From contig JAIOHV010000173.1 in assembly GCA_019912885.1 (NCBI GenBank), forward strand, positions 1-58,815: a DNA stretch of 58,815 bases, written 5' to 3'. Every line of letters begins with the position of its first letter. Within the stretch, counting starts at the first letter, position 1. The notes under the pieces were generated by a model. It was not told where the DNA came from. It made no database searches and worked only from the letters and a program-made list of their open reading frames with translations. The position numbers and the translations under genes were made by a program. This document shows positions 34,512-51,341 of the stretch, piece by piece. The stretch is from a bacterium. GTDB lineage: Bacteria; Lernaellota; Lernaellaia; JACKCT01.

Positions 34512-36391
34512 AGAACCACCACGATGGCGACGAGGAGAACGGCGCCGAAGACGACACCGGAGGCGTACCAGCGCACGCGCCCGGTCTGCGTATGCCGGAT
34601 GAGGCCGTGCGCCGCGCGGGCGACGACCGCCATGCCGGAGTAGGCCGCGTCCACGAAGTCGTTGCGGTTGAATTTCGCAAAGCCCATGACCGGGCGAACG
34701 ATGAGCGCGTTGTAAACCGCGTCAAACCCCCAGCCGGAAAACCAGAAGCGGCGCAGCGTCTCACCCCAGGGTTTGGCGGCGAGTGCGGCGGGAATATCCG
34801 GGCGCTTCACCCAGAGGAAATAGGCCAGCGCGATGCCGGACAGCGAGATGACCGCGGCGACGATCTGCAGGACGAGTTCCGTGCCGACGTGATGCTCGCC
34901 GTGATGCACCGGCAGCGTCGGCTCAAGGAAGTGCGAGAAGGCGGGCACGTTGCCGAGTGTGGCGGGCAGCTCCACGAATCCGCCGACGATCGACAGCACC
35001 GCGAGGATGATGAGCGGATACGTGATGCGTTTTCCGGGCGGGTGATGCACGTGCGTCTTCTCTTCGCCGAAGAAGGCGAGGAACACGAGGCGGAAGGTGT
35101 ACACCGCCGTCATAAAGGCGCCGAACGCGCCGAGCGCATACATGACGACGTGGCCGGAGGTGAAGGCTTTATAGAGAATGAGGTCCTTGCTGTAGAAGCC
35201 CGACGACACGAGCGGGAAGCCCGCAAGCGCGGCCGAGCCGGCCAGGAACGTGAGGTAGGTCGTCTTGAGCGAGTTTTTCAGGCCACCCATCTTGCGCAGG
35301 TCCTGCTCCTCGTGAAGCGCGTGGATCACCGCGCCGGCGCCGAGGAACAGGAGCGCCTTGAAGAAGGCGTGCGTCATGAAGTGGAAGATCGAGGCCGAAA
35401 ACGCGCCGACGCCAAGCCCCAGGAACATGTAGCCGATCTGGCTGACGGTCGAATACGCAAGCACGCGCTTGATGTCCGTCTGCACGAGCGCGGTGAAGCC
35501 GGAGATCAGAAGCGTCACAAGGCCGACGATGGCGACCGCGGTCATCGCGGGCGGGGCGAGCTCGAAGATGACGTGCGTGCGGGCGATGAGATATACGCCC
35601 GCGGTGACCATCGTCGCGGCGTGGATCAGCGCGGAGACGGGCGTCGGTCCGGCCATCGCGTCGGGCAGCCACGTTTGCAGCGGCACCTGCGCGGACTTAC
35701 CGCACGCGCCCCCAAGCAGCAGCAAGGCGGCGGCGATCGCCATCGGATGGCCGACCGACCAGGTGTCGGTTGCGCGGCCCATCAATTCCTGGATGTTGAC
35801 GGTGCCAAGCGACCAGAAAAGCAGGAACAGGCCGATCGCCATCGGCGTGTCGCCGATGCGCGTGACGACAAACGCCTTGCGCGCGCAATAGCCGTTTTGC
35901 TTGTCCTTGTACCAGAACCCGATGAGCAGATAGCTGCAAAGGCCGACGCCTTCCCACCCGAGGTAGAGAAGCAGCAGATTGTCGCCGAGCACGAGGCAGA
36001 GCATCGCGAACACGAAAAGGTTCAGGTAGGACATGAAACGCGGGAAATCCGCGTCTTTTTCCATGTACTCCGTCGAGTAGATATGGATGAGCGTTCCGAC
36101 GAACGTCACCACCAGCATGAAAACGACGGAAAGCGGATCCAGATAAAACGCGAAGTCGGGCGCGAAGTTCCCGACGCTCATCCACGTCCACAACGTCTGC
36201 GTGAAGTGGTGGTCGGGCGGCGGCGAGGTCATGAACGCGATCGCGATGAGCAATGCGATGACGGCGCTCGCCGCGGCCGCGCCCACGCTGACGGCTCCGG
36301 CGGCGGCGCGCGACAGGCGTTTGCCCGCGAACGTCAGAATCAGGAAACCGACAAGGGGAAGAACCGGGACAAGCCAGAGGAGATTGAACAC
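34508..36391 (-). CDS. nuoL: NADH-quinone oxidoreductase subunit L
   Basis: A 627-residue distal antiporter-like subunit with the long C-terminal lateral helix. Markers: LLLLYLGWEGVGLCSYLLIG, KSAQVPLQTWLPDAMAGPTP, SALIHAATMVTAGVYLIAR, QTDIKRVLAYSTVSQIGYMF and FHFMTHAFFKALLFLGAGAV. All are classic ND5/NuoL motifs with the conserved Glu and Lys of the proton channel. It sits 2 nt downstream of nuoK and overlaps nuoM by 4 nt. Confidence 0.97.
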   Translation of the reverse strand: MFNLLWLVPVLPLVGFLILTFAGKRLSRAAAGAVSVGAAAASAVIALLIAIAFMTSPPPDHHFTQTLWTWMSVGNFAPDFAFYLDPLSVVFMLVVTFVGTLIHIYSTEYMEKDADFPRFMSYLNLFVFAMLCLVLGDNLLLLYLGWEGVGLCSYLLIGFWYKDKQNGYCARKAFVVTRIGDTPMAIGLFLLFWSLGTVNIQELMGRATDTWSVGHPMAIAAALLLLGGACGKSAQVPLQTWLPDAMAGPTPVSALIHAATMVTAGVYLIARTHVIFELAPPAMTAVAIVGLVTLLISGFTALVQTDIKRVLAYSTVSQIGYMFLGLGVGAFSASIFHFMTHAFFKALLFLGAGAVIHALHEEQDLRKMGGLKNSLKTTYLTFLAGSAALAGFPLVSSGFYSKDLILYKAFTSGHVVMYALGAFGAFMTAVYTFRLVFLAFFGEEKTHVHHPPGKRITYPLIILAVLSIVGGFVELPATLGNVPAFSHFLEPTLPVHHGEHHVGTELVLQIVAAVISLSGIALAYFLWVKRPDIPAALAAKPWGETLRRFWFSGWGFDAVYNALIVRPVMGFAKFNRNDFVDAAYSGMAVVARAAHGLIRHTQTGRVRWYASGVVFGAVLLVAIVVVL

Positions 36392-36393
36392 GG

Positions 36394-36702
36394 CTATTCC
36401 CTCATCTCGCTGGCCAGATCGGCGTCAAGCGACTTGTACCGGCGGTGAATCTGCAGAATGAGCGCCAGGCCGATGGAGACCTCCGCCGCGGCCATCGCCA
36501 GAATGAAGATGAACATCACCTGACCGTCGGGCTGCCCCCAGCGCGCTCCCGCGCCGACGAACGCGAGCCCCGCCGCGTTCAGCATGATCTCGACAGACAT
36601 GAGCATGAACAGGATGTTGCGCCGCGCGAGCAGGCCGATCGCGCCGAGCGCGAAGAGCATCGCGGCCAGAAGTGTGACGTGTTCGAGAGGGACGTTCGCC
36701 AT
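36394..36702 (-). CDS. nuoK: NADH-quinone oxidoreductase subunit K
   Basis: A 102-residue three-helix membrane subunit. The start ATG 36702 was chosen to match family length; a longer open frame upstream is the shadow of nuoJ. The sequence [40 protein letters not shown] (conserved membrane Glu) and [19 protein letters not shown] (second conserved Glu) is typical. It links the quinone site to the antiporter subunits. One base separates it from the nuoJ stop. Confidence 0.95.
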
Positions 36703-36703
36703 G

Positions 36704-37210
36704 TCAGCTCCCCCCCTGGGTCGGCGCGCGGCGGCCGAGGTGATACGCCCCCACCAGGCCGGCGAGAAGCAGCATCGAGGCGAGTTCGACGCCGAGCAGG
36801 TAGGTGCCGAACAGGCGGCGGCCGACATCCGCGGGTGAAATCGCGACGCCCGCGAGCGTCGAGGCGTCCTGCGTCGAAAGCAGATAGACAAGCTCGCCGA
36901 CCAGAACGACCGCGAGGATCGAGGGGCCGATCCAGGATTTCGGCGAAAGCCACTCGCGTTCCTTGCTCTCGGTGGCCTCGCCGAGGTTCAGCATCATCAC
37001 GACGAAGACGAACAGCACCATGATCGCGCCGGCGTAGACAATGACCTCGAGCGCGGCGACGAAGGGCGCGCCGAGCACGAAGAAGATCACCGCGACGGCC
37101 ATCAGCGACATGATGAGGTTCAACAACGCGTGGACCGCGCGCGTCGACGTGATGACGAAGACCGTGGCGACGAGCGCGGCGACGGCGGCGATGTAGAAGG
37201 CAAGCGTCAT
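36704..37210 (-). CDS. nuoJ: NADH-quinone oxidoreductase subunit J
   Basis: A 168-residue membrane subunit; start at ATG 37210. Markers: [20 protein letters not shown] and [20 protein letters not shown], the conserved pi-bulge helix region of ND6/NuoJ. Five helices are predicted. It is 7 nt after nuoI and 1 nt before nuoK. Confidence 0.95.
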
Positions 37211-37217
37211 GCGGATC

Positions 37218-37733
37218 TCATGGCAAAAGGTCGCGAACGTCGATCGGCGGCTTTTCGTTTTCGGACTCGCCCTTGTCCTTGCCGCCGATCGAAAGGCCCG
37301 CGACGCGATAGAAATTGTAATCGGGGTATTTGCCGGACCCGCTGATGAGCAGGTCCTTTTTTTCGTAGACGAGGTTCGTGCGGTTGTATTCGCCAAGCTC
37401 GAAATCCGGCGTGAGCTGGATCGCGTACGTCGGGCAGGCTTCCTCGCAGTAGCCGCAGAAAATGCAGCGCGAGAAGTTGATACGGAAAAAGTCCGGGTAG
37501 CGGCGGCCGTTTTCGTCCTCGGTGGCCTGAAGCGAGATGCAATCGACGGGACAGGCGACCGCGCACAGATAACACGCGACGCACCGCTCCTCGCCGTCAG
37601 GATCGCGCGAGAGGATGATGCGCCCGCGCCAGCGCGGCGCGAGGTACGGCATCTCGTCGGGGTATTGCACGGTTTCGCGCCTGGCGAAGGCGTGCAGGAA
37701 GACGAGCCACAGCGATCTGAGGGAACTCAGCAT
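37218..37733 (-). CDS. nuoI: NADH-quinone oxidoreductase subunit I (two 4Fe-4S ferredoxin)
   Basis: A 171-residue peripheral-arm subunit carrying clusters N6a and N6b. Both ferredoxin motifs are complete: [16 protein letters not shown] and [16 protein letters not shown]. The [16 protein letters not shown] stretch before the first motif is typical. The C-terminus is charged and slightly longer than the shortest homologues. It lies 18 nt after nuoH. Confidence 0.97.
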
Positions 37734-37751
37734 CGCTTCGCTCCGGCGTGT

Positions 37752-38708
37752 TTACGACGTGGCGACAAGGATGCCTCCCGTGACGACAAGATTCAGCAAG
37801 GAGAGCGGCAGGAAGATCTTCCACGCCCAGCTCATGAGCTGGTCGTACCGCGGGCGCGGCAGCGAGCCGCGCATGAGCACGAACAGGGTGATGAAAAACA
37901 TCATCTTGAGAAAAAACCACGCGGGGCCGGGCAGGAATGCGGGCCCAAGCCACCCGCCGAAATACAGCGCGGTGACGAGCGCCGAGATCATGATGACGCC
38001 GATGTATTCGCCGACGAAAAACATGCCGAACTTCATGCCGGAGTATTCGGCGTGGAAACCGGCGACGATTTCGGACTCGGCTTCCGGCAGGTCAAAGGGC
38101 AGGCGATGCGTTTCCGCGATGCCGGCGACGAAGAAGGCCACGAAGGAAAGAACTTGTGGAATGAAGAACCAGACCTTCTTTTGCGCCTCGACGATATCGC
38201 CCAATTCGAACGAACCGGCCATCATCACCGGGCCCATGAGCGCAAGGCCCATGAACGCCTCGTAGCTCACCATTTGCGCGGCGGCGCGCATGCCTCCGAT
38301 GAGCGAATATTTGCTGTTCGATGCCCAACCGCCGAGAACGACGCTGTAAACCGCCATCGCGCTCATGGCGAGAAAAAAGAGCAGGCCTATATTCATATCG
38401 ACGATCTGCAGATTCTGGCCGAAGGGAACGATCGCCATGGACATCAACGAGCAGATGACCACAATCGCCGGCGCGACGACGAAGATTTTTTTATCGGCGA
38501 ACGGCGGGATCCAGTCTTCCTTGAAGAAAATCTTGATCATGTCCGCGACGACCTGCAAGAGGCCGAAGTAGCCGACGCGGTTCGGGCCGTAGCGATCCTG
38601 CCACAGCGCGAGAAGGCGGCGCTCCACCCAGATCAGCATGGCCGAAAGCACCATGACGACGGAGAAGATGCCGATCATGCCGGCGATACGGACGATGATG
38701 TCATTCAT
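37752..38708 (-). CDS. nuoH: NADH-quinone oxidoreductase subunit H
   Basis: A 318-residue membrane subunit forming the quinone chamber entrance. Markers: WVERRLLALWQDRYGPNRVG near the N-terminus, GGWASNSKYSLIGGMRAAAQ, SYEAFMGLALM, and AETHRLPFDLPEAESE with EYSGMKFGMFFVGEY. These are all diagnostic of ND1/NuoH. It overlaps the nuoG stop by 4 nt. Confidence 0.97.
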   Translation of the reverse strand: MNDIIVRIAGMIGIFSVVMVLSAMLIWVERRLLALWQDRYGPNRVGYFGLLQVVADMIKIFFKEDWIPPFADKKIFVVAPAIVVICSLMSMAIVPFGQNLQIVDMNIGLLFFLAMSAMAVYSVVLGGWASNSKYSLIGGMRAAAQMVSYEAFMGLALMGPVMMAGSFELGDIVEAQKKVWFFIPQVLSFVAFFVAGIAETHRLPFDLPEAESEIVAGFHAEYSGMKFGMFFVGEYIGVIMISALVTALYFGGWLGPAFLPGPAWFFLKMMFFITLFVLMRGSLPRPRYDQLMSWAWKIFLPLSLLNLVVTGGILVATS

Positions 38709-41395
38709 GACGTCACCTTTTTCAGCGTCGCGGACGCGGGCTCGACATATCCGAAATGGGCGAATCCGGCCGGCACACCCAGAACGCCCGGAGCCACGCC
38801 GGGAGCGACCGTAAGCGTCGCGGGGACGGCGTGGCCGTTTACCGCGAACTCGACCGCGTCGCCGTCGGCGAATCCGCCCGCCTTCGCGGTGTCTTCGGAA
38901 AGGAGCACGGATGCCGCCGGGGTCTGCGCGCGGACCGCCGGCGCGAGATTGCTGAGTTCCTCCGATCCGTAGATGAAGTGGCGCGGCAGAATGCCGAGCG
39001 CGCCGTTGGCCGTCGCCGGGGCGGGCGCCGATCCGAAGTCGCCGCCGGGCTCGACCGACAACAGGTCAATGCCCGGATCGCCGCCCGTAAGGGGTCCGCC
39101 GACCTCGGCCATGTATTTGTGCGTTGACTGGATGGAGTTCCAGCCTGGCGCCCAGAAAAACGGCTTGATCGCGCCGGGAACCTGCCCCTGATGGCCTTCC
39201 ATTGAAAAGACCAGCGGCGCGTCGGGATCGTCGAGCGGTTTTTGCTCGTGAATATTGATATGCGCGTTTTGCGCGGTGCGGCCGCTTACGCGATGCGTCA
39301 TGCGCGCGACCTTCAGGCCAGACACGCGGAAGTCCGCGTTCGGCGCGACATCGCCGATTTTTTCGAAACCCGCCGCCTTCGCGAGATCGCGGGTGATATC
39401 GTCGAGGTCGTTCCACGCTTCGAATTCCGCGCGCTTCGCCTTGACGGCGAGATCGCGGATCCATCGCCAGCTTTCGGAGACGTCGCCGGCCGGCGGATAG
39501 ACCTGGAAATACCGCTGCGCGCGGCCCTCGTGGTTGACGATCGTGCCGTCGCCCTCGCCGAAGGTCGCGGCGGGAAGGATGCTGCCCGCGCGGGCGGCGG
39601 TGGGCGTCATGGTGTGATCGACAAGGACGACACGCGCTTTATCGAGCGCCTTGTCCACGAGTTCGGCGGGCGCGCGGCGGTACAGATCGTTTTCCAGGAC
39701 GACGAGCGTGTCCGCCTCGCCGGCCGCCACGCGCCCAAGGGCCGCCGTCGCGTCCATGCCGCCGAGCATCGAAACGCCGACGGTATTGCACTCGGCGAAC
39801 GCAATCGCGATGCGCGCGGGTTTGCCCGCGGCCACGAGCGCCGCGGCCAGGGCGCCCGCCGCCTTGATGAGCGATTCGTTGAGAAGGCCGGTGCTGGCGA
39901 CGACGAGCGGCGCGTCGGCGTCCTTGAGGTCGCGCGCGATCTTCGTGATGCGGTCGCGCGTTGCTTCGTCAAATCCCGCCGTGTCCGTTCCGCTGGCCAC
40001 GCGTGTCGCGACGGCATGAGCAAAGCGTGCGATGTCCGCCGGCGCGCCGATGAATCGGCCGCTCGCCACGTCGTCCAGGCGCGTGGGCCAGGGCGAGGCG
40101 ACGAAGAGCGGCCCGCGGTCCTGCTGGATGGCCTCGCGCAGCGCGAGGTCGTGCCATTTGGGCAGATCGAGTTCGCGCGCGGCGGCCAGAGGTTGAACGC
40201 GAACCGACTGACGCAGAGCCAGCGCGAAACGCGGCGCGAACTGCGTCGGATCGTCGCCAAGCACGATGGCGGCGTCGCATTTCTCGATCTCGCCGAGCGA
40301 CGCCAGCGCCGCGCCCGAACGGCGCAGCACGTCGATCGCGCTCGCGGCGGCGCGCGATTCCGCGGCGGAGATGCCGGTCGAGAAGCGCTCGTCGCCGACC
40401 AGGCGCTTGAGCGCGAAGTTCGCCTCGAGCGACGCGCGCGGGCTGCCGATGCCGACGACGCGCGAAGGGTCGCCGAGCGTTTCGGCGACCGCGGCGAGCA
40501 CGTCGTCGCGCGAGGAAAGGGCCACGCCGTCGGCGGCCGCGCGCAGCACCGGTTTGCGGATGCGCGCCTCGCTGTTGACGAACTCGTAGCCGAAGCGTCC
40601 CCGGTCGCACAGGAAATATTTATTGACGTGGCTGTTGTAACGGTTCACGACGCGGCGCAGCGTTCCGTAGCGTTCGCCCGCGGAGATGTTGCATCCGACG
40701 GAGCAATGCTGGCACACCGATGGCGCCATTTGCAGGTCCCACTTGCGGGTGTAGTGCTGCTTGAGCGTCTTGTCGGTGAAGACGCCCGTTGGGCAGACCT
40801 CGACGAGATTGCCGGCGAACTCGCTTTCGAGCGTGCCATCCTCGTGGCGACCGAAATAGGTATGGTTTTTCGACGCGAAGGCGCCGAGATCCTTGCCGCC
40901 CGCGTAGTCCTTGTAATACCGCACGCACCGGTAGCACTGGATGCAGCGGTTCATCTCGTGGTTGATGAACGGCCCGAGCTTCTGATTGCGGTAGGTGCGT
41001 TTGGGGAATCGCGTCTTGCGGTAGTTGTGACCGGTCATCACGGTCATGTCCTGAAGGTGGCATTCGCCGCCCTCGTCGCAGACCGGGCAATCGTGCGGGT
41101 GGCTTTGCATCAGCCACTCGATGACCTCGGCACGGAATTTCGTCGCGTCGGCATCCTTGATCGACAGGCGCATGCCGTCGCGCACCGGCGTCATGCACGA
41201 CATGACGATCATGCCGCGCGTGTCGTTTTCGTCGCGGTAGGTCTTGACGGCGCACTGCCGGCACGCGCCGACCGAGCCCAACGCCGGATGCCAGCAGAAG
41301 TAGGGCAGGTTCAGTCCGTGAGACAGGCAGGCGGAAAGGACGTTGTCCTCGCCGTCCACCTCGACCTCAACGTTATCGACAATGATCTTCGCCAT
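38705..41395 (-). CDS. nuoG: NADH-quinone oxidoreductase subunit G
   Basis: An 896-residue iron-sulfur subunit. The 2Fe-2S site is CLSHGLNLPYFC with ACRQC. The His-ligated 4Fe-4S site (N5) is HPHDCPVCDEGGEC. N4 is CIQCYRC with VCPTGVF. A fourth 4Fe-4S motif, CQHCSVGC followed by FLCDRGRF, corresponds to cluster N7 of some bacterial complexes and looks complete. The C-terminal 600 residues are the degenerate molybdopterin-oxidoreductase fold, ending in a formate-dehydrogenase-like beta domain. It is three bases after nuoF. Confidence 0.96.
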   Translation of the reverse strand: MAKIIVDNVEVEVDGEDNVLSACLSHGLNLPYFCWHPALGSVGACRQCAVKTYRDENDTRGMIVMSCMTPVRDGMRLSIKDADATKFRAEVIEWLMQSHPHDCPVCDEGGECHLQDMTVMTGHNYRKTRFPKRTYRNQKLGPFINHEMNRCIQCYRCVRYYKDYAGGKDLGAFASKNHTYFGRHEDGTLESEFAGNLVEVCPTGVFTDKTLKQHYTRKWDLQMAPSVCQHCSVGCNISAGERYGTLRRVVNRYNSHVNKYFLCDRGRFGYEFVNSEARIRKPVLRAAADGVALSSRDDVLAAVAETLGDPSRVVGIGSPRASLEANFALKRLVGDERFSTGISAAESRAAASAIDVLRRSGAALASLGEIEKCDAAIVLGDDPTQFAPRFALALRQSVRVQPLAAARELDLPKWHDLALREAIQQDRGPLFVASPWPTRLDDVASGRFIGAPADIARFAHAVATRVASGTDTAGFDEATRDRITKIARDLKDADAPLVVASTGLLNESLIKAAGALAAALVAAGKPARIAIAFAECNTVGVSMLGGMDATAALGRVAAGEADTLVVLENDLYRRAPAELVDKALDKARVVLVDHTMTPTAARAGSILPAATFGEGDGTIVNHEGRAQRYFQVYPPAGDVSESWRWIRDLAVKAKRAEFEAWNDLDDITRDLAKAAGFEKIGDVAPNADFRVSGLKVARMTHRVSGRTAQNAHINIHEQKPLDDPDAPLVFSMEGHQGQVPGAIKPFFWAPGWNSIQSTHKYMAEVGGPLTGGDPGIDLLSVEPGGDFGSAPAPATANGALGILPRHFIYGSEELSNLAPAVRAQTPAASVLLSEDTAKAGGFADGDAVEFAVNGHAVPATLTVAPGVAPGVLGVPAGFAHFGYVEPASATLKKVTS

Positions 41396-41398
41396 TCC

Positions 41399-42676
41399 CT
41401 AGCTCCAGGGGCACCGTTTTTCGTCAATGTGTCGTTTGAAATCGTCGCCGAAATATTTGATCGCGCTTTGCAGCGGTTCGACCGCTCCGGGCGCGAGCGC
41501 GCAGAAGGTCATGCCCGGGCCGAGCCAGCGCGAATGCGCCTGCAAGGTCTCGATATCGTCGGGCAGGCCCTCGCCGTTTTCCATCGCGTTCAGGATGTCG
41601 CGCACGCGCGGGAGGCCGTCGCGGCAGGGGGTGCACCAGCCGCACGATTCCTGCGCGAAGAAAAGCTCCAGGTTGTGCACCATGCCGACGGGGCACGTCT
41701 TGTCGTCGAGGACGATCATGGTGCCGGTGCCCATGCGGCTTCCGGCGTCCTGGATGTTTTTGTAGTCCATCGGCAGGTCGAGGTGCTCCTCGACAAGGAA
41801 GTCGGTCGACGCGCCGCCGGGCAGGAGGCCGCGAAACTTGTATCCATCCTTCATGCCGCCGGCGTAGCCTTCGAGGATCTCACGGACGGGCGTGCCCATC
41901 GGCAGCTCCCAGCAGCCGGGCGTCTTGACGTTGCCCGAGACGCCGTAAAGTTTCGTGCCGCCGTCCTCCGTCTTCGAGAGGCCCTTGAACCAGTCGGCGC
42001 CCTTCAGAATGATGTGCGGCACGTTGTAGAGCGTTTCGACGTTCTGGACGATGGTCGGCTTGCCGAAAAGGCCCACGAACTGCGGGAAGGGCGGTTTGGC
42101 GCGCGGGTTGGCGCGGCGGCCTTCAAGCGAATTGAGCAGCGCCGTTTCCTCGCCGCAGATGTAGCGCCCGGCGCTCGCGTGCAGGTAGATGTCGAGACTG
42201 TAGCCGGTGCCCTTGATGTTCTTGCCGATCATGCCGGCGTTGGCGGCCTCGGCGATGGCCTTGTGCAAAAGCCGCGCGGCGTGGCGGTACTCCCACCGAA
42301 GGAAGATGTAGGCGATTTCCGCCTCGATGGCGTACGCGGCGCAGATGATCGATTCGATCATGCCGTGCGGATCGCCCTCGAGCAGCACGCGGTCCTTGAA
42401 GGTGCCCGGTTCCATCTCGTCGCCGTTGACGACCAGGTACTTGGGGCGGCGCGCCTTTTCGCCCATCGGCACGAAGCTCCACTTCATGCCCGTGGGGAAG
42501 CCCGCGCCGCCGCGGCCGCGCAGATTGGATTCCTTGATGGCCTTCACGACGTCGCCGGGCGCCATCGCAAGGACCTTGTCCGCGGCCTCGTAGCCGCCGG
42601 CCTTGCGGAAACCGTCGTAGTCGTAAGGCGCTTCGCCTTCGCGGATTCGGCTCGTCAGCGGACGTTCCATCGTCAC
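41399..42676 (-). CDS. nuoF: NADH-quinone oxidoreductase subunit F (NADH/FMN-binding)
   Basis: A 425-residue flavoprotein that oxidises NADH. Markers: GRGGAGFPTGMKWSF (NADH/FMN site, about residue 54), VVNGDEMEPGTFKDR, AYIFLRWEYRHAARLL and SCGWCTPCRDG (cluster N3, about residue 344). The family usually ends soon after this cluster, as here. It overlaps the nuoE stop by 4 nt. Confidence 0.97.
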   Translation of the reverse strand: MTMERPLTSRIREGEAPYDYDGFRKAGGYEAADKVLAMAPGDVVKAIKESNLRGRGGAGFPTGMKWSFVPMGEKARRPKYLVVNGDEMEPGTFKDRVLLEGDPHGMIESIICAAYAIEAEIAYIFLRWEYRHAARLLHKAIAEAANAGMIGKNIKGTGYSLDIYLHASAGRYICGEETALLNSLEGRRANPRAKPPFPQFVGLFGKPTIVQNVETLYNVPHIILKGADWFKGLSKTEDGGTKLYGVSGNVKTPGCWELPMGTPVREILEGYAGGMKDGYKFRGLLPGGASTDFLVEEHLDLPMDYKNIQDAGSRMGTGTMIVLDDKTCPVGMVHNLELFFAQESCGWCTPCRDGLPRVRDILNAMENGEGLPDDIETLQAHSRWLGPGMTFCALAPGAVEPLQSAIKYFGDDFKRHIDEKRCPWS

Positions 42677-43149
42677 GCGCCTTTCTTCCGGTACGATTCG
42701 AGAATCTCGTCCACGCGATCCGGGGTGAGGTTCGTGTGCAGATCCTCATTCACCATGAACGCGGGCGCGCGGTCGCAGCAACCCAGGCACGGCACGGTGA
42801 GCAGCGTGAACATGTTGTCCGCGGTGGTCTGTCCGAGGTCGATGCCGAGCCGTTCGCGCAGATGCTTGCGGATGCCGCGATAGCCGACGATCCAGCAACT
42901 CACGCTGTCGCAAAGCAGGATGACGTATTTGCCGACGGCCTTGCGGTACACCAGGCTATAGAACGTCGCCACCGAGTCGAGTTCGGTCGGCGACATGCCG
43001 AGGATGCCCGCAACCTCCTTCAGGTGATCGTCGGACACCCAACCGTAGCGATCCTGCACGAGCTTCAGCGATTCGATGCCCGCCGCGCGCGGATCGGCGT
43101 AGTGTCCGGCGTGTTCAAGAATGTCGTCGCGGTCCTTGGCGGAAAGCAT
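42673..43149 (-). CDS. nuoE: NADH-quinone oxidoreductase subunit E
   Basis: A 158-residue thioredoxin-like 2Fe-2S subunit (cluster N1a). I chose ATG 43149; an in-frame extension to 43221 runs into nuoCD sequence. The four ligands are in CDSVSCWIVGY and CLGCCDRAP. QDRYGWVSDDHLKEVAGILG at the N-terminus is typical. It is 7 nt after nuoCD. Confidence 0.96.
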   Translation of the reverse strand: MLSAKDRDDILEHAGHYADPRAAGIESLKLVQDRYGWVSDDHLKEVAGILGMSPTELDSVATFYSLVYRKAVGKYVILLCDSVSCWIVGYRGIRKHLRERLGIDLGQTTADNMFTLLTVPCLGCCDRAPAFMVNEDLHTNLTPDRVDEILESYRKKGA

Positions 43150-43156
43150 GGGTCCT

Positions 43157-44914
43157 CTATCGGTCCAGGTCGGCGAGCACGAAATCGAGCGCGCCGAGAA
43201 TCGCCAAAACATCGGGAACAAGTGCGCCCTTGCAAAGCAGCGGCATCATCTGGATATGCGCGAACGACGGGGTGCGGATGCGCGTGCGGTACGACATCGT
43301 GTTCCCGTCGCTGACGCAGTAATACGCGTTGTGCCCCTTGCTCGCCTCGTAAATGAACGTCGCCTCGCCCGGCGGAACGACCGGCCCCCAGCTCACGGAA
43401 AGGAAGTGCGTGATGAGGGTTTCGATGTCGTGCATCGTGCGGTCCTTGAGGGGCGGCGTCGTCAGCGGATGGCGCGATTTGTAATCGCCCGCCGGCATGT
43501 TCTCAAGACACTGCTTCACGATCCGCAGGCTCTGGTTGATCTCCTCAAGACGCACCTCGGCGCGCGCGAAGCAGTCGCCGCCCTCGGCCGTGGGGATGTC
43601 GAACTCGAAATTTTCGTATCCGCCATAGGGGCGCTTTTTGCGCATGTCCCACGCGAAGCCGGTGGCGCGCAGGCCGGGACCGGACTGGCCCCAGTCGATC
43701 GCCTCTTCGGTCGTGAACGCGCCGACGCCCTTGGTGCGCGCCTGGAACATTTTGTTTTTCATGACGATCTTGTTGTATTCGACAAGGCGCTTGGGCATGC
43801 GTTCGACGAATGCGCGCACCATCTTGTCCCATCCCAGGGGAAGGTCGTGCGCGACGCCGCCGATGCGAAACCAGCTCGGGTGCATGCGTCCGCCGCAGAT
43901 CGCCTCGACCATCTCGAAGATGCGCTCACGGTCGTTGAACGTGTAGAACACCGGGCTCATCACGCCGAGATCCTGCGCGAAGGTTCCGTACCACACGAGG
44001 TGGCTCGCGATGCGGAACAGCTCCGACATCATGATGCGGATTGTCTTGGCGCGATCGGGCAATTCGATGCCCGCGAGCTGCTCGACCGTGAGGCAATAAG
44101 CGTGGTTGTTCAGCACGCCGCCCAGGTAGTCGATGCGGTCGGTGTAGGGGATGTAGGTGTGCCAGCTCTGGCGTTCGCCCATCTTTTCGGCGCCGCGATG
44201 GTGGTAGCCGATATCCGGCACCATGTTCACGACCTCTTCGCCGGAGAGCTGAAGGATCAGGCGGATGATGCCGTGCGTCCCGGGGTGCTGCGGCCCGAGG
44301 TTCAGGAACATGAAGTCGTGGTCGTCTTCCCACGTCGTCAGGCCCCAATCCTCGGGCTTGAAGAGCATGGACTCCTGGCGGCGGATCGCCTCGTCCTCGG
44401 GAAGCTGGAAGGGGCCCATCTCGGTCGCGCGCGCGGGGTGCTCCTTGCGCAACGGATGGCCTTCCCAATATTCCGGCATGAGGATACGGCGCAGGTGCGG
44501 GTGGCCGTTGAACTTGAGGCCGAACATGTCGAAGACCTCGCGTTCGTACCAGTTCGCGTTCGGCCAGATCTTTGTCGCGGAGTCGAGCGAGGGGTGGTCG
44601 CCTTTCAGCGGCACCTTCACGCGGACGTCAGAGTTTCGGTCGTACGAAACCAGATGATAGACGACGGTGAAATCGGAGTCGGGCTGGCCTTCGCGATGCA
44701 CGCGCACGCGCTCGTCGATGGCGGTGAGATCGAACAGGTATTTGTAGCCGCCGGCGACGCCGTCCTTCAGGAAGCGCAGCGCTTCGGCGATTTTGTCCGC
44801 GGCAAGCCACACGGTCGGAATGTGATCGGCCGTCGGTTGCAGGGTCAGTGCGTCCTCGCCGAATTTCCCGGCGAGTTCGGCGATGACGTTGTTGGTTTGC
44901 TCGGCGGCCGCCAT
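43157..44914 (-). CDS. nuoCD: NADH-quinone oxidoreductase fused subunit C/D
   Basis: A 585-residue fusion. NuoC part (about 1-170): [20 protein letters not shown] and [20 protein letters not shown], the 30-kDa subunit signature. After a linker (about 170-205) the NuoD part has [29 protein letters not shown] and [15 protein letters not shown], the 49-kDa quinone-site subunit, ending in PVLADLDR-like VLADLDR. C-D fusion is known in Enterobacteria and others and saves one gene here. The start overlaps the nuoB stop by one base. Confidence 0.97.
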
Positions 44915-45591
44915 CAGACTTCCTTCGGCGAACGCAGGTCGGTGACCTTGACGCGCCAGTCGTGCTTGAGATCGCGCATCGAGGGCGTCGTTGGCTTGAT
45001 GATGCCTTGCTCGCCGACGACCCAGGACAGCGGCCGGCGCTCGCGCCCGACCTGCTCGCGCAGCATGACGAGTCCTTCGAGAAACGCCTCGGGGCGCGGC
45101 GGGCAGCCGGGAACGTAAAGATCGACCGGCATGATTTTGTCGACGCCCTGAACGACGCTATAGATGTCGTACATGCCGCCGGAGTTCGCGCACGAGCCCA
45201 TCGAGATCACCCAGCGGGGCTCCATCATCTGCTCCCAGAGGCGGCGGATGATCGGCGCCATCTTGATGAACGGCGTGCCGGCGATGACCATCAGGTCCGC
45301 CTCGCGCGGCGTGCCGCGAATGACCTCGGCGCCGAAGCGCGCAACGTCGAATTTGGAGGTGATGGACGTCGCCATCTCAACAAAACAGCAGGACAGGCCG
45401 AACGCGAACGGCCACATGGAGTTTTTGCGTCCCCAGGCGATGAGATCTTGCAGGCGCGAGAACACGACGTTCTGTTTCGCGGCTTCGATGACGAACGGAT
45501 CGTTCGCCGCGAACGCGGCCTTGGTCGAGCTGTGCGCGGGCACAAGGGTGTAGGGCGTCGCGCCGGGCGCCAACGCGTTTTTCTTCGTCAT
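44914..45591 (-). CDS. nuoB: NADH-quinone oxidoreductase subunit B
   Basis: A 225-residue subunit holding cluster N2, the terminal electron donor to quinone. The start ATG 45591 has GGAGG five bases upstream. Cluster ligands: [11 protein letters not shown] (adjacent cysteines), [12 protein letters not shown] and [14 protein letters not shown]. An N-terminal stretch of about 45 residues precedes the core, a little longer than in many homologues. It overlaps nuoA by 4 nt. Confidence 0.97.
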
Positions 45592-45980
45592 GTTTCCTCC
45601 CGGCGCGCGAGCCGCGATTTCGGGCCCCAGTCGAGCGCGCCGATCCTCCAGAGGTACACCAGGCCGGCAAAAAGCATGACGATGAAGATCAGCGCCTCGA
45701 CGAAGCCGAGCCACCCCAGGTCGCGGACGGCCACGGCCCACGAGAAGAGAAAGACGGCCTCGAGGTCGAAGATCACGAAGAACATGGCGACAAGGTAGTA
45801 CTGCTGGCTAAGACGTACCCGCGCGGAGCCGGTGGAAACGATGCCGGATTCGTACGGCTCGCCGGTCTGTTCCTCGCGATGGCGTCCGCCGAGAAAAAAC
45901 GACAGGCCGATCATGAAGGCGGCCTGGCCGATCACAATGCCGGCATACAACAGAAGCGGCCAAAGGGGTCCGTCAGCCAC
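45588..45980 (-). CDS. nuoA: NADH-quinone oxidoreductase subunit A
   Basis: A 130-residue three-helix membrane subunit, first gene of the nuo operon. I prefer GTG 45980 ([16 protein letters not shown]) because it matches family length. Markers: [20 protein letters not shown] and [19 protein letters not shown], with the conserved membrane Asp/Glu pair. An in-frame ATG at 46127 would add 49 basic residues without family resemblance. That ATG is only 11 nt after the operon -10, so an extended NuoA cannot be excluded. Confidence 0.9.
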
Positions 45981-46138
45981 GGCGGCCTCGCGGGTTCGGA
46001 TAGGGGGATGCGTCAGGCACGGGTACAGCTCCCGTAGCGGCGCGCGGCCGGTTTTCCGGCGGCGGCGAAACGCCTTGTCAGTGAAATCGTTTCTGGAAAG
46101 GGACTTGGGGCGAGTCCGGCTCCCCATCGGCGGGGCGA

Positions 46139-46228: not shown

Positions 46229-48037
46229 TTATTTCACGATTTCCGCCGCCACCAAGAGGCCCGAAATGTTGTGCTGGTTGTAGTCGATGCGCGTGGTGTT
46301 GCGGACGGGCGAGTGGCGGAACGCGCCAAGCGCGCGTTTGGGGTTCGGGTAGAGGCCGGCGAACTGGGGGCGGATCATGCCGCCGATCTGGAATTTCGCG
46401 GCGCGCATGATGATCGTTTCCAGCTCCTTCATTTTCTTTTCGTCGCCGATGCGCTGCGCGATGCGCCACGTCGCCGTCAGGCCCTCCGAGCGCGAGCCCG
46501 CGGGCGTGACCGCCGGCGGCACGGGATAGTAGCCGCCCGCGTAGTCGCGCGGCGGCAGGAAGCGGATCCACTGATCCGCGCCAATGCCGTCCGCGATCGC
46601 GAACGCGTATTCGGCGTACTCCGGCCTGGGATCGACCGAATGCAGTTCATCGAGCGCCAGCATCAGCCACGCGTCCGGCGGAACGTTGAAACGCAGCCCC
46701 AGCATGTTCCAGCGCTCGTTGATGAGGTAATCCGCCGCGCACCGAACGGCTTCGAGGATCTCCGGCCGGCGCGCGTCGCCGCCCTCGCGCTCGAGCATCT
46801 TGTAATAGCGGATCAGGCCGAGCATCGCCTCGCCGGGGTAATAGATCGAACGCCGGTTCTTCTCCTTCACGCCCGGGACGCCGCCGTAATAGCTCGCAAG
46901 GCTGCCGTCGCGGTTTTGCGAAAGAAGGATGTGCCGGGCGAGGCCCGCCATGTAGCGATCATTCTCGCCGTTTGATTTCGCGACGCCGTGTTTTTCCACG
47001 AACGCCATCAGCGCAAGGCCCGCGCCGCCGAGCTTGATCGCCCGCGGCTCGCGGACATACAGGCGATCCTTGTCCTTGGGGTCCGCCTCGATGACCGACT
47101 TCAGCCACGCGAGCCCCTTGTCCGCGCTCGCGAGATAGCGCGGCTCGCCCGTCGCGCCGAAGAGCTGGTACATCGCGTAGGTCGTACCCGCGTGACGCAG
47201 GAGGTTGTAGTCCTTCTTGTCGTATTTATCGCGGCCGGCGTTGTATTCGTAGTACCACTTGCCGTTTTCCTTTTGCATGCCGATGAGGAAATCGCCGCCG
47301 ATTTTGCACGCCTCGATGATGTCCGCGGACGATAGGTTTTCGACGAGCGTCGATGCGCGATAAAGCGGCAGCGGCTTTTCGTTGAACGCGCGCGTGACGA
47401 GACCTTCGTCGAGGAACGTGTACAACCCGTCGCCGCGGTCGAAGTCGCGGATGAGCGGCGCGCTCGAGCCCGATACGTTCTTGATTGCGCGTTCAAAACG
47501 CAGCTCATTTGCGTGAATCACCGGGCCGGGCAGGGCGCGGCAATGTTCGGCGTCGCAGCGAAGCAGGCCGTGGATGCCCGTCTGGTAGGTCAGCCCCGCG
47601 CTCGCGAGCGAATCGATCCACACGCGCGAGACGCCGCGCGCCAGGTGCACGGAGATCGCCTCGGGTGTCACGTCGATCTTGCGTTTCCAGAGCGCGGTCA
47701 GCTCTTGCGAGAGGCGCGCGACAAGCGGCGCGAGATCGGCTTCGGCCCTCACGGCGCCCATGAACGGCCGATCCGCGCGCGTACCCGCGTGGAAGGCGAC
47801 GATGATGAATTCGGTATCGGACGTGGAGGGCACGGAGCGCTCCGGCGGGGCGGTCGTGAATCCGGACCAGGCCGCCGCCGCGAGAACCTCGCGGTCTTCG
47901 TCGGAGAGCACGCGGCGAAAATCCGCGTCGCCTTGCAGCACGAAGATCCCGCCGACAAAAAAGACGGGCACGACCGCGATGACCGCAATGGCCGAAAACG
48001 CGCGCTTCACGAACAGGACGGCCTCGCGCGTTGCCAT
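46229..48037 (-). CDS. Membrane-anchored protein with predicted alpha/alpha-toroid domain, function unknown
   Basis: A 602-residue protein. A single transmembrane helix lies at about residues 13-33 (AFSAIAVIAVVPVFFVGGIF), so the rest is probably periplasmic. Residues about 35-215 form a mixed domain of unknown type. From about 215 there are regularly spaced helical hairpins (KIGGDFLIGMQKENGKWYY, NLLRHAGTTYAMYQLFGATG, KLGGAGLALMAFVEKHG, YYPGEAMLGLIRYYKML), the pattern of alpha/alpha-barrel folds such as six-hairpin glycosidases, epimerases and LanC-like proteins. I do not recognise the family. The start overlaps the stop of the upstream peptidase-barrel gene as TGATG, so the two are translated together and probably act together. 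Confidence 0.75.
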   Translation of the reverse strand: MATREAVLFVKRAFSAIAVIAVVPVFFVGGIFVLQGDADFRRVLSDEDREVLAAAAWSGFTTAPPERSVPSTSDTEFIIVAFHAGTRADRPFMGAVRAEADLAPLVARLSQELTALWKRKIDVTPEAISVHLARGVSRVWIDSLASAGLTYQTGIHGLLRCDAEHCRALPGPVIHANELRFERAIKNVSGSSAPLIRDFDRGDGLYTFLDEGLVTRAFNEKPLPLYRASTLVENLSSADIIEACKIGGDFLIGMQKENGKWYYEYNAGRDKYDKKDYNLLRHAGTTYAMYQLFGATGEPRYLASADKGLAWLKSVIEADPKDKDRLYVREPRAIKLGGAGLALMAFVEKHGVAKSNGENDRYMAGLARHILLSQNRDGSLASYYGGVPGVKEKNRRSIYYPGEAMLGLIRYYKMLEREGGDARRPEILEAVRCAADYLINERWNMLGLRFNVPPDAWLMLALDELHSVDPRPEYAEYAFAIADGIGADQWIRFLPPRDYAGGYYPVPPAVTPAGSRSEGLTATWRIAQRIGDEKKMKELETIIMRAAKFQIGGMIRPQFAGLYPNPKRALGAFRHSPVRNTTRIDYNQHNISGLLVAAEIVK

Positions 48038-51000
48038 CAGAAAAGGCCTCCGACGCCGAAAAAGAATACGTCCGGATTCTTGCGATCAGGCGCGTGCGCG
48101 TAAACGAAACGCAGCGCGACGTTGTAGTAATACGCGAGGCCGAGCGACTGGATCAGCTCGAACCCGTATGCCTCGTAAATTTCGCCGGGATCGTTCACGT
48201 CAAGTTCGCCCATCCAGGCCTTGCCCGCGTTCGCGTAAACGCTCGCGGACAGGGTGTCGAAGTAAATCGGCTGCGTGCTGAAGCCGGTCTGCTGATACCA
48301 AAGCGGCGCTCGGTAGTCGATGCTGCCGACCGCGGCCCGCTCGCCGCGCAAATCGCCGGGTGCGAATCCGCGCAGGAAAAAGGTGTTCGTCGCCGTCTGC
48401 GCGGTGAGGTCTTCCTGGGTGTATCCGCCGATGCGAAAGGGCGTGCGGTAGAGTTCGTCTCCCTGCGCGGCGCCGGCGAACAATCGCAGGTCAAGGACAT
48501 TGTTGCGCCACGGAATCGACACGAACTGGCGAAGCGCGAGGATCGCGGACGCCACGTCGTATTCGGATCCGAAAACGCGGTTGTCGGCCGCGACGGAGGC
48601 GATGTACACACCGCCGTTTTCCGGCGCGACGGAGAGCTGATAGCCTTCGGCATTCGAAAATACGACACCGGCGCGCGGACCGGACATGATGCCTTCTTCC
48701 GGCAGGCGATTTCGCGGCTCATCGATCTGCGTGTCGCGCTCGAAATATTGCACGAGAAAGTTGCCGAAGACGGAGAACTCGTCCGTGAATAGATACGACG
48801 CGCCGGCGGCCGCCGCGTTGCGAAGCAGAAAGAAATTGTGCGTGTCGCCGGTTTCGTCTTCCGCGATGTTGCCGTAGTCGAGGCCGATGCGCGAGGCGCT
48901 TGCGCGGAGCGTCGGGCGGAACCGGTCGTAGGCGTACGCGACGGCGCCCGACAGGAACCCGCGCTCGAATCGGTAGTTCAGATCGACCGCGTACGAGTGC
49001 CGGCCGATGGAATCGATGCCGGAGGTTTGCAATCCGAGCGAGCTGATGGTCCGCTCGCCGAACCACGCCAACGAGTAGTTCGGCATCCAGTACGACGGGC
49101 GCAGCGTGCTCCACGGCGAATAAAGCTCGATGGCCGGGTCCGACTCGCGCGCACGATCCTCGAGCCCGGCCGTGACGCCGCCCGGTCGGATGGCGTTGGA
49201 CCGCGGGCGGACGACGCCCTCTCCGCGGCCGTCGGCGTCGGCGAGATTCATCACGTGCAGATCGAATCCCCGCGCGGAGTACTGGATCATCGCGAGGCGT
49301 TTTCCGTCAGGCGAAGGCGTCGGGTAAAACGCGCCGTTGACGACGTTCGTCACGCGCGCGAGCCGGCGCGACGCAAGATCGAGCGCGTACACATTATGGA
49401 TGCCGCTCGCATCGGAGACGAAATACAGCGTCTTGCCGTCGGGCGAAAATACCGGATCGACATCACGCGAGGACGCGTCCGTGACGCGCTCGAACGCACC
49501 GCTTCGCCAATCGAACAGAAAGATGTCGCGGTTGCCGTCTTCGTGCCAGACCGATAGCGCGATCGTCTCCCCGTCGGGCGAAAACGCCGGCTCGGACAGA
49601 TGCACCGGATGCGTGAAGCGGTCAAATGACGTGAGGTCAGCGAGTTCGCCGGTTTCAAGATCGACGCGCACAATCTTGGACGCCGCGTCCTTTTGCGCGA
49701 TCGCCACGACCCACGTCCCGTCCGGGTGGACGTCCGGGTCACGTACGCGCTCGCCGCGCGTGAGCCGCCGGTCGATCAGCTTGTCGGGGTCGTGGATGTA
49801 GAGATCGTGGTGCGTCGTCCAGGGGTTGTCCGGGCCGGCGGAGGCGTACACGATCTTGCGCGTTCCGGGGACGACGGCCATGCCGCGCAAGATGCCGGCG
49901 CCTTCGACCGTTCGGCTTTGCCCCGACGGAAGATCGATCGCCTCGATCCGCCCCTTTCGTCGCCCGTCGTTCGTTTCGACGAGCACCGTGTCGTTATCGA
50001 GAAAACGCGGCCGTCCATGCTGGAATCCCGAGTCGGTCAGCGCGCGCGTTGCGGTGAGACCCTCCTCGACAAGCACGCGGTACTGCGCCTGATACGCGAA
50101 CGTCGCTTCGTATCGCCAGTCGCTCCACAACTCGTCGAGCGTGTGGTGCGCGAACGTGCTTTTGGCGTTCGTGTCGAACAGGAACGGCCAGATCTGGCCC
50201 GCGTGCTTCCACGCATAATCGCCAAGCGTGTCGTCGCCAAAGCGGTTCGCGAGGTATTCGTGAAATTCGCCGCCGAAGATGTACGGGACCGCGCCGCCCG
50301 GCCAGGTGCGCGGGAAAAACGACGCGCGGTCGAGCCCCGGAAAACGTCCTTCGAGAGCGGCGGCGCGGATGATCATGTCGGAGGTAGTCGAACGATTGCG
50401 CCCCTTGGTCGTGAGGTCCGTTTCCTCGTGAACGGCGAGGCCCTCGATCATGAACACCGGCTGGATGTGCTGCAAAAAGAACGCGCGGCCGAATACGAAA
50501 CGCAATCCGGCGGGGATCGCGCGCACGCTGTCGATGTGGATGGCGTGCGTCATCTCGTGCGTGATGATGGTGCGCATCCAGTCGTCGTAGTAGTCGAGGC
50601 GGTCTTCCGAATGGGGCAGCGCGGCGAAGATGCGAATGGTGTTCCAGGGCTGCTGCGTGGAATAGCCGTTCGTGTCGTCGAGCGAGTCGGCAAGGACGAT
50701 GCGGATTTTCTCTCGCGGGACCCAGCGCAGTTTTTGCGTCAGAGCGGGGAAAACATCCTCGGCGACGATCGCGGCCTTCTTCGCCAGAAATTCCTCGCCC
50801 TCGTAATAGATGATCTCGAAATTCTCCGTCGCGATCGTCTTCCAATCGTACCCGGCTTCGTAAATCGACGCGGCGAAGGCGCCGGCAGGGAAAAGCGCCG
50901 TGGCGATTACAAGAATAAAGACCGAAAGGAGGAAAGACCGGAAGGCTGGAACGCCGGCGCGCGCCGCCCCGCACCATTCGCCGCATCGGCGCGTCCCGCG

Positions 51001-51081
51001 CACCGTCCCGCGCCATTCGCCAAATCGGTGCGTCCCTCGCAACGTCCGGCACCATTCGCCAAATCGGTGCGTCCCTCGCAT
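48037..51081 (-). CDS. Large secreted fusion: HExxH metallopeptidase, TolB-like beta-propeller and BamA/TamA-type outer-membrane barrel
   Basis: About 1014 residues if read from ATG 51081. A hydrophobic signal (SVFILVIATALFPAGAFA) precedes a zinc-peptidase domain with HEMTHAIH and a downstream MIEGLAVHEE (peptidase-MA/gluzincin style). About residues 350-620 hold PD40/WD40-like blades: PAFSPDGETIALS, PVFSPDGKTLYFVS and PTPSPDGKRLAMI. The last roughly 350 residues are beta-rich with SIDYRAPLWYQQTG and end in FFFGVGGLF, the terminal Phe of outer-membrane barrels (surface antigen D15 type). No ATG/GTG/TTG lies between GTG 51003 and the signal core, so the start is 51003, 51081 or 51102 and at least one 39-bp repeat is translated. 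Coupled to the toroid gene downstream. Confidence 0.82.
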   Translation of the reverse strand: MRGTHRFGEWCRTLRGTHRFGEWRGTVRGTRRCGEWCGAARAGVPAFRSFLLSVFILVIATALFPAGAFAASIYEAGYDWKTIATENFEIIYYEGEEFLAKKAAIVAEDVFPALTQKLRWVPREKIRIVLADSLDDTNGYSTQQPWNTIRIFAALPHSEDRLDYYDDWMRTIITHEMTHAIHIDSVRAIPAGLRFVFGRAFFLQHIQPVFMIEGLAVHEETDLTTKGRNRSTTSDMIIRAAALEGRFPGLDRASFFPRTWPGGAVPYIFGGEFHEYLANRFGDDTLGDYAWKHAGQIWPFLFDTNAKSTFAHHTLDELWSDWRYEATFAYQAQYRVLVEEGLTATRALTDSGFQHGRPRFLDNDTVLVETNDGRRKGRIEAIDLPSGQSRTVEGAGILRGMAVVPGTRKIVYASAGPDNPWTTHHDLYIHDPDKLIDRRLTRGERVRDPDVHPDGTWVVAIAQKDAASKIVRVDLETGELADLTSFDRFTHPVHLSEPAFSPDGETIALSVWHEDGNRDIFLFDWRSGAFERVTDASSRDVDPVFSPDGKTLYFVSDASGIHNVYALDLASRRLARVTNVVNGAFYPTPSPDGKRLAMIQYSARGFDLHVMNLADADGRGEGVVRPRSNAIRPGGVTAGLEDRARESDPAIELYSPWSTLRPSYWMPNYSLAWFGERTISSLGLQTSGIDSIGRHSYAVDLNYRFERGFLSGAVAYAYDRFRPTLRASASRIGLDYGNIAEDETGDTHNFFLLRNAAAAGASYLFTDEFSVFGNFLVQYFERDTQIDEPRNRLPEEGIMSGPRAGVVFSNAEGYQLSVAPENGGVYIASVAADNRVFGSEYDVASAILALRQFVSIPWRNNVLDLRLFAGAAQGDELYRTPFRIGGYTQEDLTAQTATNTFFLRGFAPGDLRGERAAVGSIDYRAPLWYQQTGFSTQPIYFDTLSASVYANAGKAWMGELDVNDPGEIYEAYGFELIQSLGLAYYYNVALRFVYAHAPDRKNPDVFFFGVGGLF

Positions 51082-51088
51082 CGTCGCG
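50972..51088. repeat. Three tandem copies of a 39-bp repeat
   Basis: Units at 50972-51010, 51011-51049 and 51050-51088, each with CCATTCGCC and CGTCCC at the same phase. Units 2 and 3 match at about 35 of 39 positions and unit 1 matches unit 3 at about 33. Each unit can form a small stem (CACC with GGTG around an AT-rich core). The period is 13 codons and stays in frame with the minus-strand peptidase-barrel gene, where it reads RGTHRFGEWCRTL-type repeats before the signal peptide. The remaining intergenic DNA to 51341 holds the element at 51127 and no gene. Confidence 0.8.
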
Positions 51089-51126: not shown

Positions 51127-51152
51127 TGTCATCCTGAGCGAAGCGAAGGATC
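51127..51152. repeat. Dispersed intergenic element of the TGTCATCCTGAGCGAAGCGAAGGATC type
   Basis: The core CCTGAGCGAAGCGAAGG is near-palindromic. I recognise it from many unrelated environmental bacterial genomes, where its translations (ILRFAQDD, SFASLRMT) litter databases as false proteins. It lies between the 39-bp repeats and the metallophosphoesterase gene. Only one copy is present in this window. Confidence 0.6.
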
Positions 51153-51341
51153 CCGCCTCGCCTGATGTCAAACCCTTCCCCAACCGCATACCCGTTCGCG
51201 ACCCCAAAAAATGCTGGCGAAAATGCACGACATTCGTGTCTAACAGCTTTGCGGCGGACCTTCCAGCCTTCGCGCCGTCCCACCGTTCCACCATCCCGCG
51301 CTGTTACGCGTTCGTGCTACAACATGCGGCGGAGGTGTCGC

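Follow-up and report, generated by a model that had tools for sequence, protein, structure and literature searches.

We describe a pair of overlapping genes in the candidate phylum Lernaellota, of which the first encodes a fusion of a predicted zinc metalloprotease, a TolB-like propeller and a predicted Omp85-type barrel, and the second a membrane-anchored protein joining a divergent AMMECR1-like domain to an (alpha/alpha)6 toroid. The AMMECR1-like domain of the toroid protein is new here; we found no description of such a fusion, or of its pairing with gene 1, in the open-access full-text literature. In the reading that we favour, to which we give an even chance of being right, the pair encodes an outer membrane-tethered periplasmic protease and an inner membrane-anchored, probably glycan-directed partner that would be coupled in envelope processing or quality control.

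Genomes and sequence sample

The window, that is the whole stretch of DNA analysed, is a contig of 58,815 nt with 64.5% GC and belongs to a 4.8-Mb assembly of 230 contigs (from here: G000). The class of G000 is represented in our collection by only seven genomes (G000 to G006). GTDB phylum FEN-1099, Ca. Lernaellota, with which this small class and its GC content agree, was described with 7 genomes of 61.5–64.3% GC (PMC11382960). A wider sample consisted of 386 genomes, G000–G006 included. Distributions were taken from whole-genome searches; a contig scan for close relatives returned one locus only.

Layout of the two genes

Both reading frames reported in the earlier note are present on the minus strand. 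Gene 1 (48037..51081, minus strand) encodes a signal peptide, a predicted gluzincin peptidase, a TolB-like propeller and an Omp85-type barrel, in total 1014 aa if translation starts at 51081. Gene 2 (P0002; 46229..48037, minus strand) encodes 602 aa with an N-terminal membrane anchor, the AMMECR1-like domain and the toroid. The coupling proposed in the earlier note can be read directly from the sequence: at 48037..48041 (minus strand) the stop codon of gene 1 overlaps the start of gene 2 by one base in a TGATG, the junction being ...GGCCTTTTCTGATGGCAACG, with one A common to TGA and ATG. On the same strand, a complex I (nuo-like) operon is located at 31585–46127 of the window, including an apparent fused NuoC-NuoD frame at 43157–44914 (assigned by eye).

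Whether gene 1 starts at 51081 is uncertain. A hydrophobic signal-peptide core (LLSVFILVIATALFPAGAFA; 50868..50931, minus strand), recognized from the sequence, begins at about residue 50 of the 1014-aa product, placing the real start upstream of it at an uncertain codon, and three 39-bp direct repeats occur at 50960–51088, in and before the proposed N-terminus. For these reasons, and given the repeat-like element described below, a start further down is just as likely as 51081, and in-frame TTG or GTG codons exist there, e.g. a GTG near 51003. The orthologue in locus L064 begins with VIRIAVWAALLALIALFPASAFAAS. Upstream of gene 1, a 27-bp exact GGATCCTTCGCTTCGCTCAGGATGACA element at 51127–51153 looks like a dispersed repeat; similar peptides (ILRFAQDDK) in another contig of G000 (L076) point the same way.

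Domain composition of gene 1

The N-terminal domain (approximately 50080..50865, minus strand) is, as judged from motif conservation and matches of its homologues to PF13485, a predicted zinc metalloprotease of the Peptidase MA (gluzincin) type. HEMTH occupies residues 174–178 of the 1014-aa product, and the Glu of IEGLA, 38 residues past the first His of HExxH, is the candidate third zinc ligand. In alignment A3, which comprises 20 homologues from this and many other phyla, positions H125, E126, H129 and E163 are invariant; hence the gluzincin signature, HExxH plus a downstream Glu in an EG motif, was found in gene 1 and in all 20 homologues. PF13485 (Peptidase_MA_2) matched 9 of the 20 (best 2.5e-11) and not gene 1 itself in the Pfam search, and flagellinolysin-type HExxH matches were obtained for six of them in NCBIfam. 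The HExxH peptidase (HEMTHAIH) named in the earlier note is thus borne out; GLAVHEE, also pointed to there, does adjoin the zinc site, but the likely ligand is the IEGLA Glu just before it.

A PD40/TolB-like beta-propeller follows (approximately 49170..49910, minus strand), as had been noticed before. PD40 matched gene 1 at 4.6e-16 (Pfam) and 19 of the 20 homologues, TIGR02800 (TolB; NCBIfam) matched residues 422–615 at 6.4e-35, and the family profile A3 found the TolB structure 7mx5 at 2.3e-47 in the PDB. Profile searches gave no POTRA match in gene 1; the propeller takes the place of POTRA.

The C-terminal part (approximately 48040..49000, minus strand) is predicted to form an Omp85-type barrel, on the basis of the family profile and of a conserved motif. 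Profile A3 matched BamA (8xnb) at 1.4e-6 over positions 693–958, the whole barrel, as well as TamA (8us4, 4.2e-6) and 9ccg (7e-9). The barrel family carries the (L/V/M)RG(F/Y) motif, LRGF in gene 1, and the protein ends in GGLF, in keeping with the D15/BamA-like barrel with terminal Phe proposed initially. PF01103 matched four of the 20 homologues, gene 1's own barrel scoring below its Pfam threshold, and Omp85/BamA/TamL matches appeared for a few homologues in NCBIfam. The barrel and the zinc site are read from sequence profiles; the motifs of the homologues, the Pfam and NCBIfam matches and the PDB profile matches together support the order peptidase-propeller-barrel. The earlier note allowed for parts of this architecture in other deltaproteobacterial-type genomes; the complete combination is common in other phyla.

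In G002 the gene 1 orthologue (L065, 7742–10761) is interrupted by a frameshift or a stop; the gene may be broken, or the assembly wrong at this point. A second peptidase-propeller-barrel paralogue of G000 (contig C38; L078, 195–7537) sits between genes for a lipoprotein-like protein of 905 aa and a protein of 394 aa, both without Pfam match, and related paralogues are present in the other genomes of the phylum.

Domain composition of gene 2

AMMECR1 proteins are conserved from bacteria to humans and are linked to disease; to our knowledge, no function has been assigned to them. The evidence supports a divergent AMMECR1-like domain at residues ~40–228 of the gene 2 protein (47354..47920, minus strand), predicted from comparisons with PF01871, TIGR04335 and 1zq7, a reverse search and hhalign. 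A family profile was built from 29 members, all AMMECR1-like-toroid fusions. PF01871 matched seven of the 29, at best with 2.8e-7 and in paralogues, TIGR04335 (AmmeMemoSam_A; NCBIfam) gave a family match at 5.5e-8, and the 29-member profile matched the solved AMMECR1 structure 1zq7 at 1.8e-7 in the PDB. In the reverse direction, the same profile recovered stand-alone and Memo-fused AMMECR1 proteins from the 386 genomes through exactly the ~40–228 region, and the five of these proteins that were tested matched PF01871 at 1e-50 to 1e-61. In profile-profile comparison by hhalign the paralogues aligned with AMMECR1 at E 1.5e-19; the P0002 orthogroup alone reached E 5e-4 at a probability of 31% against AMMECR1, which is weak, and E 1.5e-16 against the paralogues, and the link of P0002 to AMMECR1 is therefore transitive. 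All 29 toroid fusions lack AMMECR1's LRGCIG motif (PMC5502304), whereas 17 of 18 AMMECR1 domains have RGC(I/V/L)G. No stand-alone AMMECR1 was found in G000. The earlier note had proposed a profile query with residues 35–215 of the toroid protein and had missed the AMMECR1-like domain that such searches detect.

The C-terminal half (46232..47400, minus strand) was assigned as an (alpha/alpha)6 toroid from AlphaFold2, Foldseek and a GH127 Pfam match within the family (4e-9). AlphaFold2, run with a two-sequence alignment, placed 12 long helices in six pairs (pTM 0.74), and the best Foldseek matches were GH76 (1.2e-5), GH88, cellobiose/glucose 2-epimerases (AGE-type) and squalene-hopene cyclase, with E values from 1.2e-5 to 1e-3 and 11–14% identity in most matches. 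This agrees with the anchored toroid of glycan-acting likeness described in the earlier note. Model confidence is moderate (pLDDT 65) and the Foldseek TM-scores are 0.5–0.6, values that bear out the fold but not an enzyme class. P0002 itself stays below every Pfam gathering score, the best being GH127 with 12.8 bits versus a cut-off of 24.9, and its catalytic residues could be matched to no known family. Assignments as a GH127 or a LanC enzyme were rejected, their scores being under the cut-offs, and a single-sequence AlphaFold2 model of the whole protein was poor (pLDDT 39.7) and was not used.

Conservation of the gene pair

Gene 2 lies directly downstream of the gene 1 orthologue in six of the seven phylum genomes (G000, G001, G002, G004, G005 and G006), so the neighbourhood flagged in the earlier note is not peculiar to this genome, but it was not seen to reach across phyla: no gene 1 relative was found beside any of the out-of-phylum toroids among the 386 genomes. 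The P0002 orthogroup has one member per phylum genome. Candidate stop-to-start spacings are −1 in G000, −4 in G001, +3 in G002 and −4 in G005, and the other two, G004 and G006, have overlapping frames or an unclear start at the junction. The trees of gene 1 and gene 2 have the same topology. In one family the pair is flanked by phosphoesterase and DUF547 genes, or by phosphatase- and sugar-nucleotide-type genes (the latter recognized by eye), and in the other family by flagellar-motor-like genes (by eye) with HDOD and LpoB-like genes. Since the adjacency is kept and the flanks differ between the families, the pair has stayed together while its surroundings changed. We do not regard the features of the unit as due to chance: all 20 homologues have the peptidase motif unchanged, and six of seven phylum genomes have the two genes side by side. 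These data show co-inheritance of the two genes, and vertical inheritance of the unit forms part of our favoured explanation.

In G003 the two genes are on different contigs, and the coupling is therefore not obligatory; moreover, peptidase-barrel proteins occur outside the phylum without a toroid, so they work without one there. Both observations, like the unrelated contexts of the toroid paralogues reported below, suit the view that a generic outer-membrane barrel protease and an independent member of the toroid family merely share expression from a convenient operon, with no common complex or pathway. We consider this somewhat unlikely, in view of the pair's retention in six genomes, where several spacings are very short or overlap although the flanks vary, and of the congruent gene trees.

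The toroid family elsewhere

The AMMECR1-toroid fusions constitute a paralogous envelope family that is abundant in this phylum and rare elsewhere. Each of the seven phylum genomes contains about 4–9 P0002 matches, some of them fragments, and 12 of the 29 family members are lipoproteins by a strict lipobox pattern. Outside the phylum, among the 386 genomes, full fusions were detected in G209 and in G098/G236/G365, and toroid-only relatives in G073 and G252. Among 24 genomes from its own phylum, G209 alone has the fusion; there (L113, 11891–15592) the fusion gene shares 4 bp with a frame for a 1233-aa protein that joins, by eye, a spermidine-synthase-type membrane part to a metallo-beta-lactamase-like domain.

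The contexts of the paralogues differ. Downstream of TamB and a TamA-like Omp85 protein with seven POTRA domains, a toroid paralogue occurs in three genomes of the window's family (L073, 8471–19395, on G000:C43; L122 on G001:C9; and G002:C22), in G000 with an integral-membrane frame (DUF2079-like by eye) before it. A third toroid orthogroup follows ScpA-, ScpB- and pseudouridine-synthase-like genes, named by eye, in other genomes (L077, 2980–7342; L128; L131). The pairing with gene 1 is therefore specific to one orthogroup and not a rule of the family; no universal toroid partner emerged.

The TamB-TamA context, together with the likening of propeller-Omp85 fusions to a BamA-BamB fusion by Heinz and Lithgow (PMC4104836), could be taken to mean that protein 1 is a BAM/TAM-like insertase with the propeller as built-in BamB and a protease that trims clients, and that the toroid stands to it as TamB to TamA, being a scaffold without enzyme activity or a partner that spans the periplasm. 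This appears quite improbable to us: only one family shows the TamA link, protein 1 has no detectable POTRA, and strongly conserved polar residues of the toroid suggest ligand binding.

Proposed function

The domains, the invariant zinc-site motif, the coupled arrangement, the retained pairing and the congruent trees are shown by the data; we infer the periplasmic topology, the activity, the substrates and the contact between proteins 1 and 2. In our favoured reading, the Omp85-type barrel would tether the propeller and the N-terminal metalloprotease on the periplasmic side of the outer membrane. Protein 2, made by coupled translation, would be held in the inner membrane via its N-terminal hydrophobic segment, with the AMMECR1-like domain and then the toroid both in the periplasm. 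The propeller might present envelope proteins to the protease, the toroid might bind or modify a glycan, be it peptidoglycan, an exported polysaccharide or a glycoprotein, and at the outer membrane both proteins would act together in processing or quality control within the periplasm.

For a long time, PlpD-type Omp85 fusions were taken to act by type-V-like surface display (PMC4104836), and by this older view the barrel of protein 1 would export a peptidase-propeller passenger to the cell surface. We judge this very improbable, since the enzyme domain of PlpD was shown to be exclusively periplasmic (PMC11116518) and those Omp85 proteins that have been studied have their N-terminal domains in the periplasm; by the precedent of PlpD, the N-terminal domains of gene 1 should be periplasmic as well. 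From the same result, of the "processing or secretion machine" of the earlier note, processing is favoured and secretion finds no support.

A bolder and rather unlikely extension of the favoured reading sees in the AMMECR1-like-toroid proteins a new class of glycan-handling enzymes of the periplasm. This class, expanded in this phylum, would have brought to the envelope a domain that human AMMECR1 also has, and one member would act in complex with an outer membrane-tethered metalloprotease to process glycosylated or peptidoglycan-attached proteins. An AMMECR1-like domain fused to a sugar-enzyme toroid and coupled to an outer-membrane protease offers a testable lead on the ligands of such domains.

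Comparison with known systems

With the (alpha/alpha)6 sugar enzymes GH76, GH88/GH105, AGE-type 2-epimerases and GH127, gene 2 shares the toroid fold and weak sequence similarity, but differs from them in its mostly 11–14% identity, in passing no gathering score and in its unmatched catalytic residues. With the AMMECR1 family (PF01871; TIGR04335; 1zq7) it shares similarity over the whole domain profile, including a GxHGL-like segment; unlike AMMECR1, the gene 2 family is devoid of LRGCIG, is membrane-anchored or lipoprotein, and has a toroid, not Memo, as fusion partner. PlpD (patatin-Omp85), the nearest enzyme-Omp85 fusion that has been studied, resembles gene 1 in carrying an enzyme domain ahead of an Omp85 barrel, whereas it combines a patatin-like domain with POTRA where gene 1 has a peptidase and a propeller; we know of no toroid partner of PlpD.

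Gene 1 is also close to the WD40-Omp85 proteins, propeller-Omp85 fusions recognized as an uncharacterised class (Heinz & Lithgow 2014, PMC4104836) and in 2024 still described as poorly characterised. Like gene 1, they have an Omp85-type barrel preceded by a TolB-like propeller, with no POTRA found. The propeller-barrel part of gene 1 is thus already described, and peptidase-propeller-barrel is a known but unstudied architecture. Gene 1 differs from WD40-Omp85 in the peptidase domain with invariant gluzincin motif ahead of the propeller, the word "peptidase" having 0 occurrences in the main text of Heinz & Lithgow 2014 (PMC4104836). For one member of this uncharacterised class, the gene pair suggests a concrete partner.
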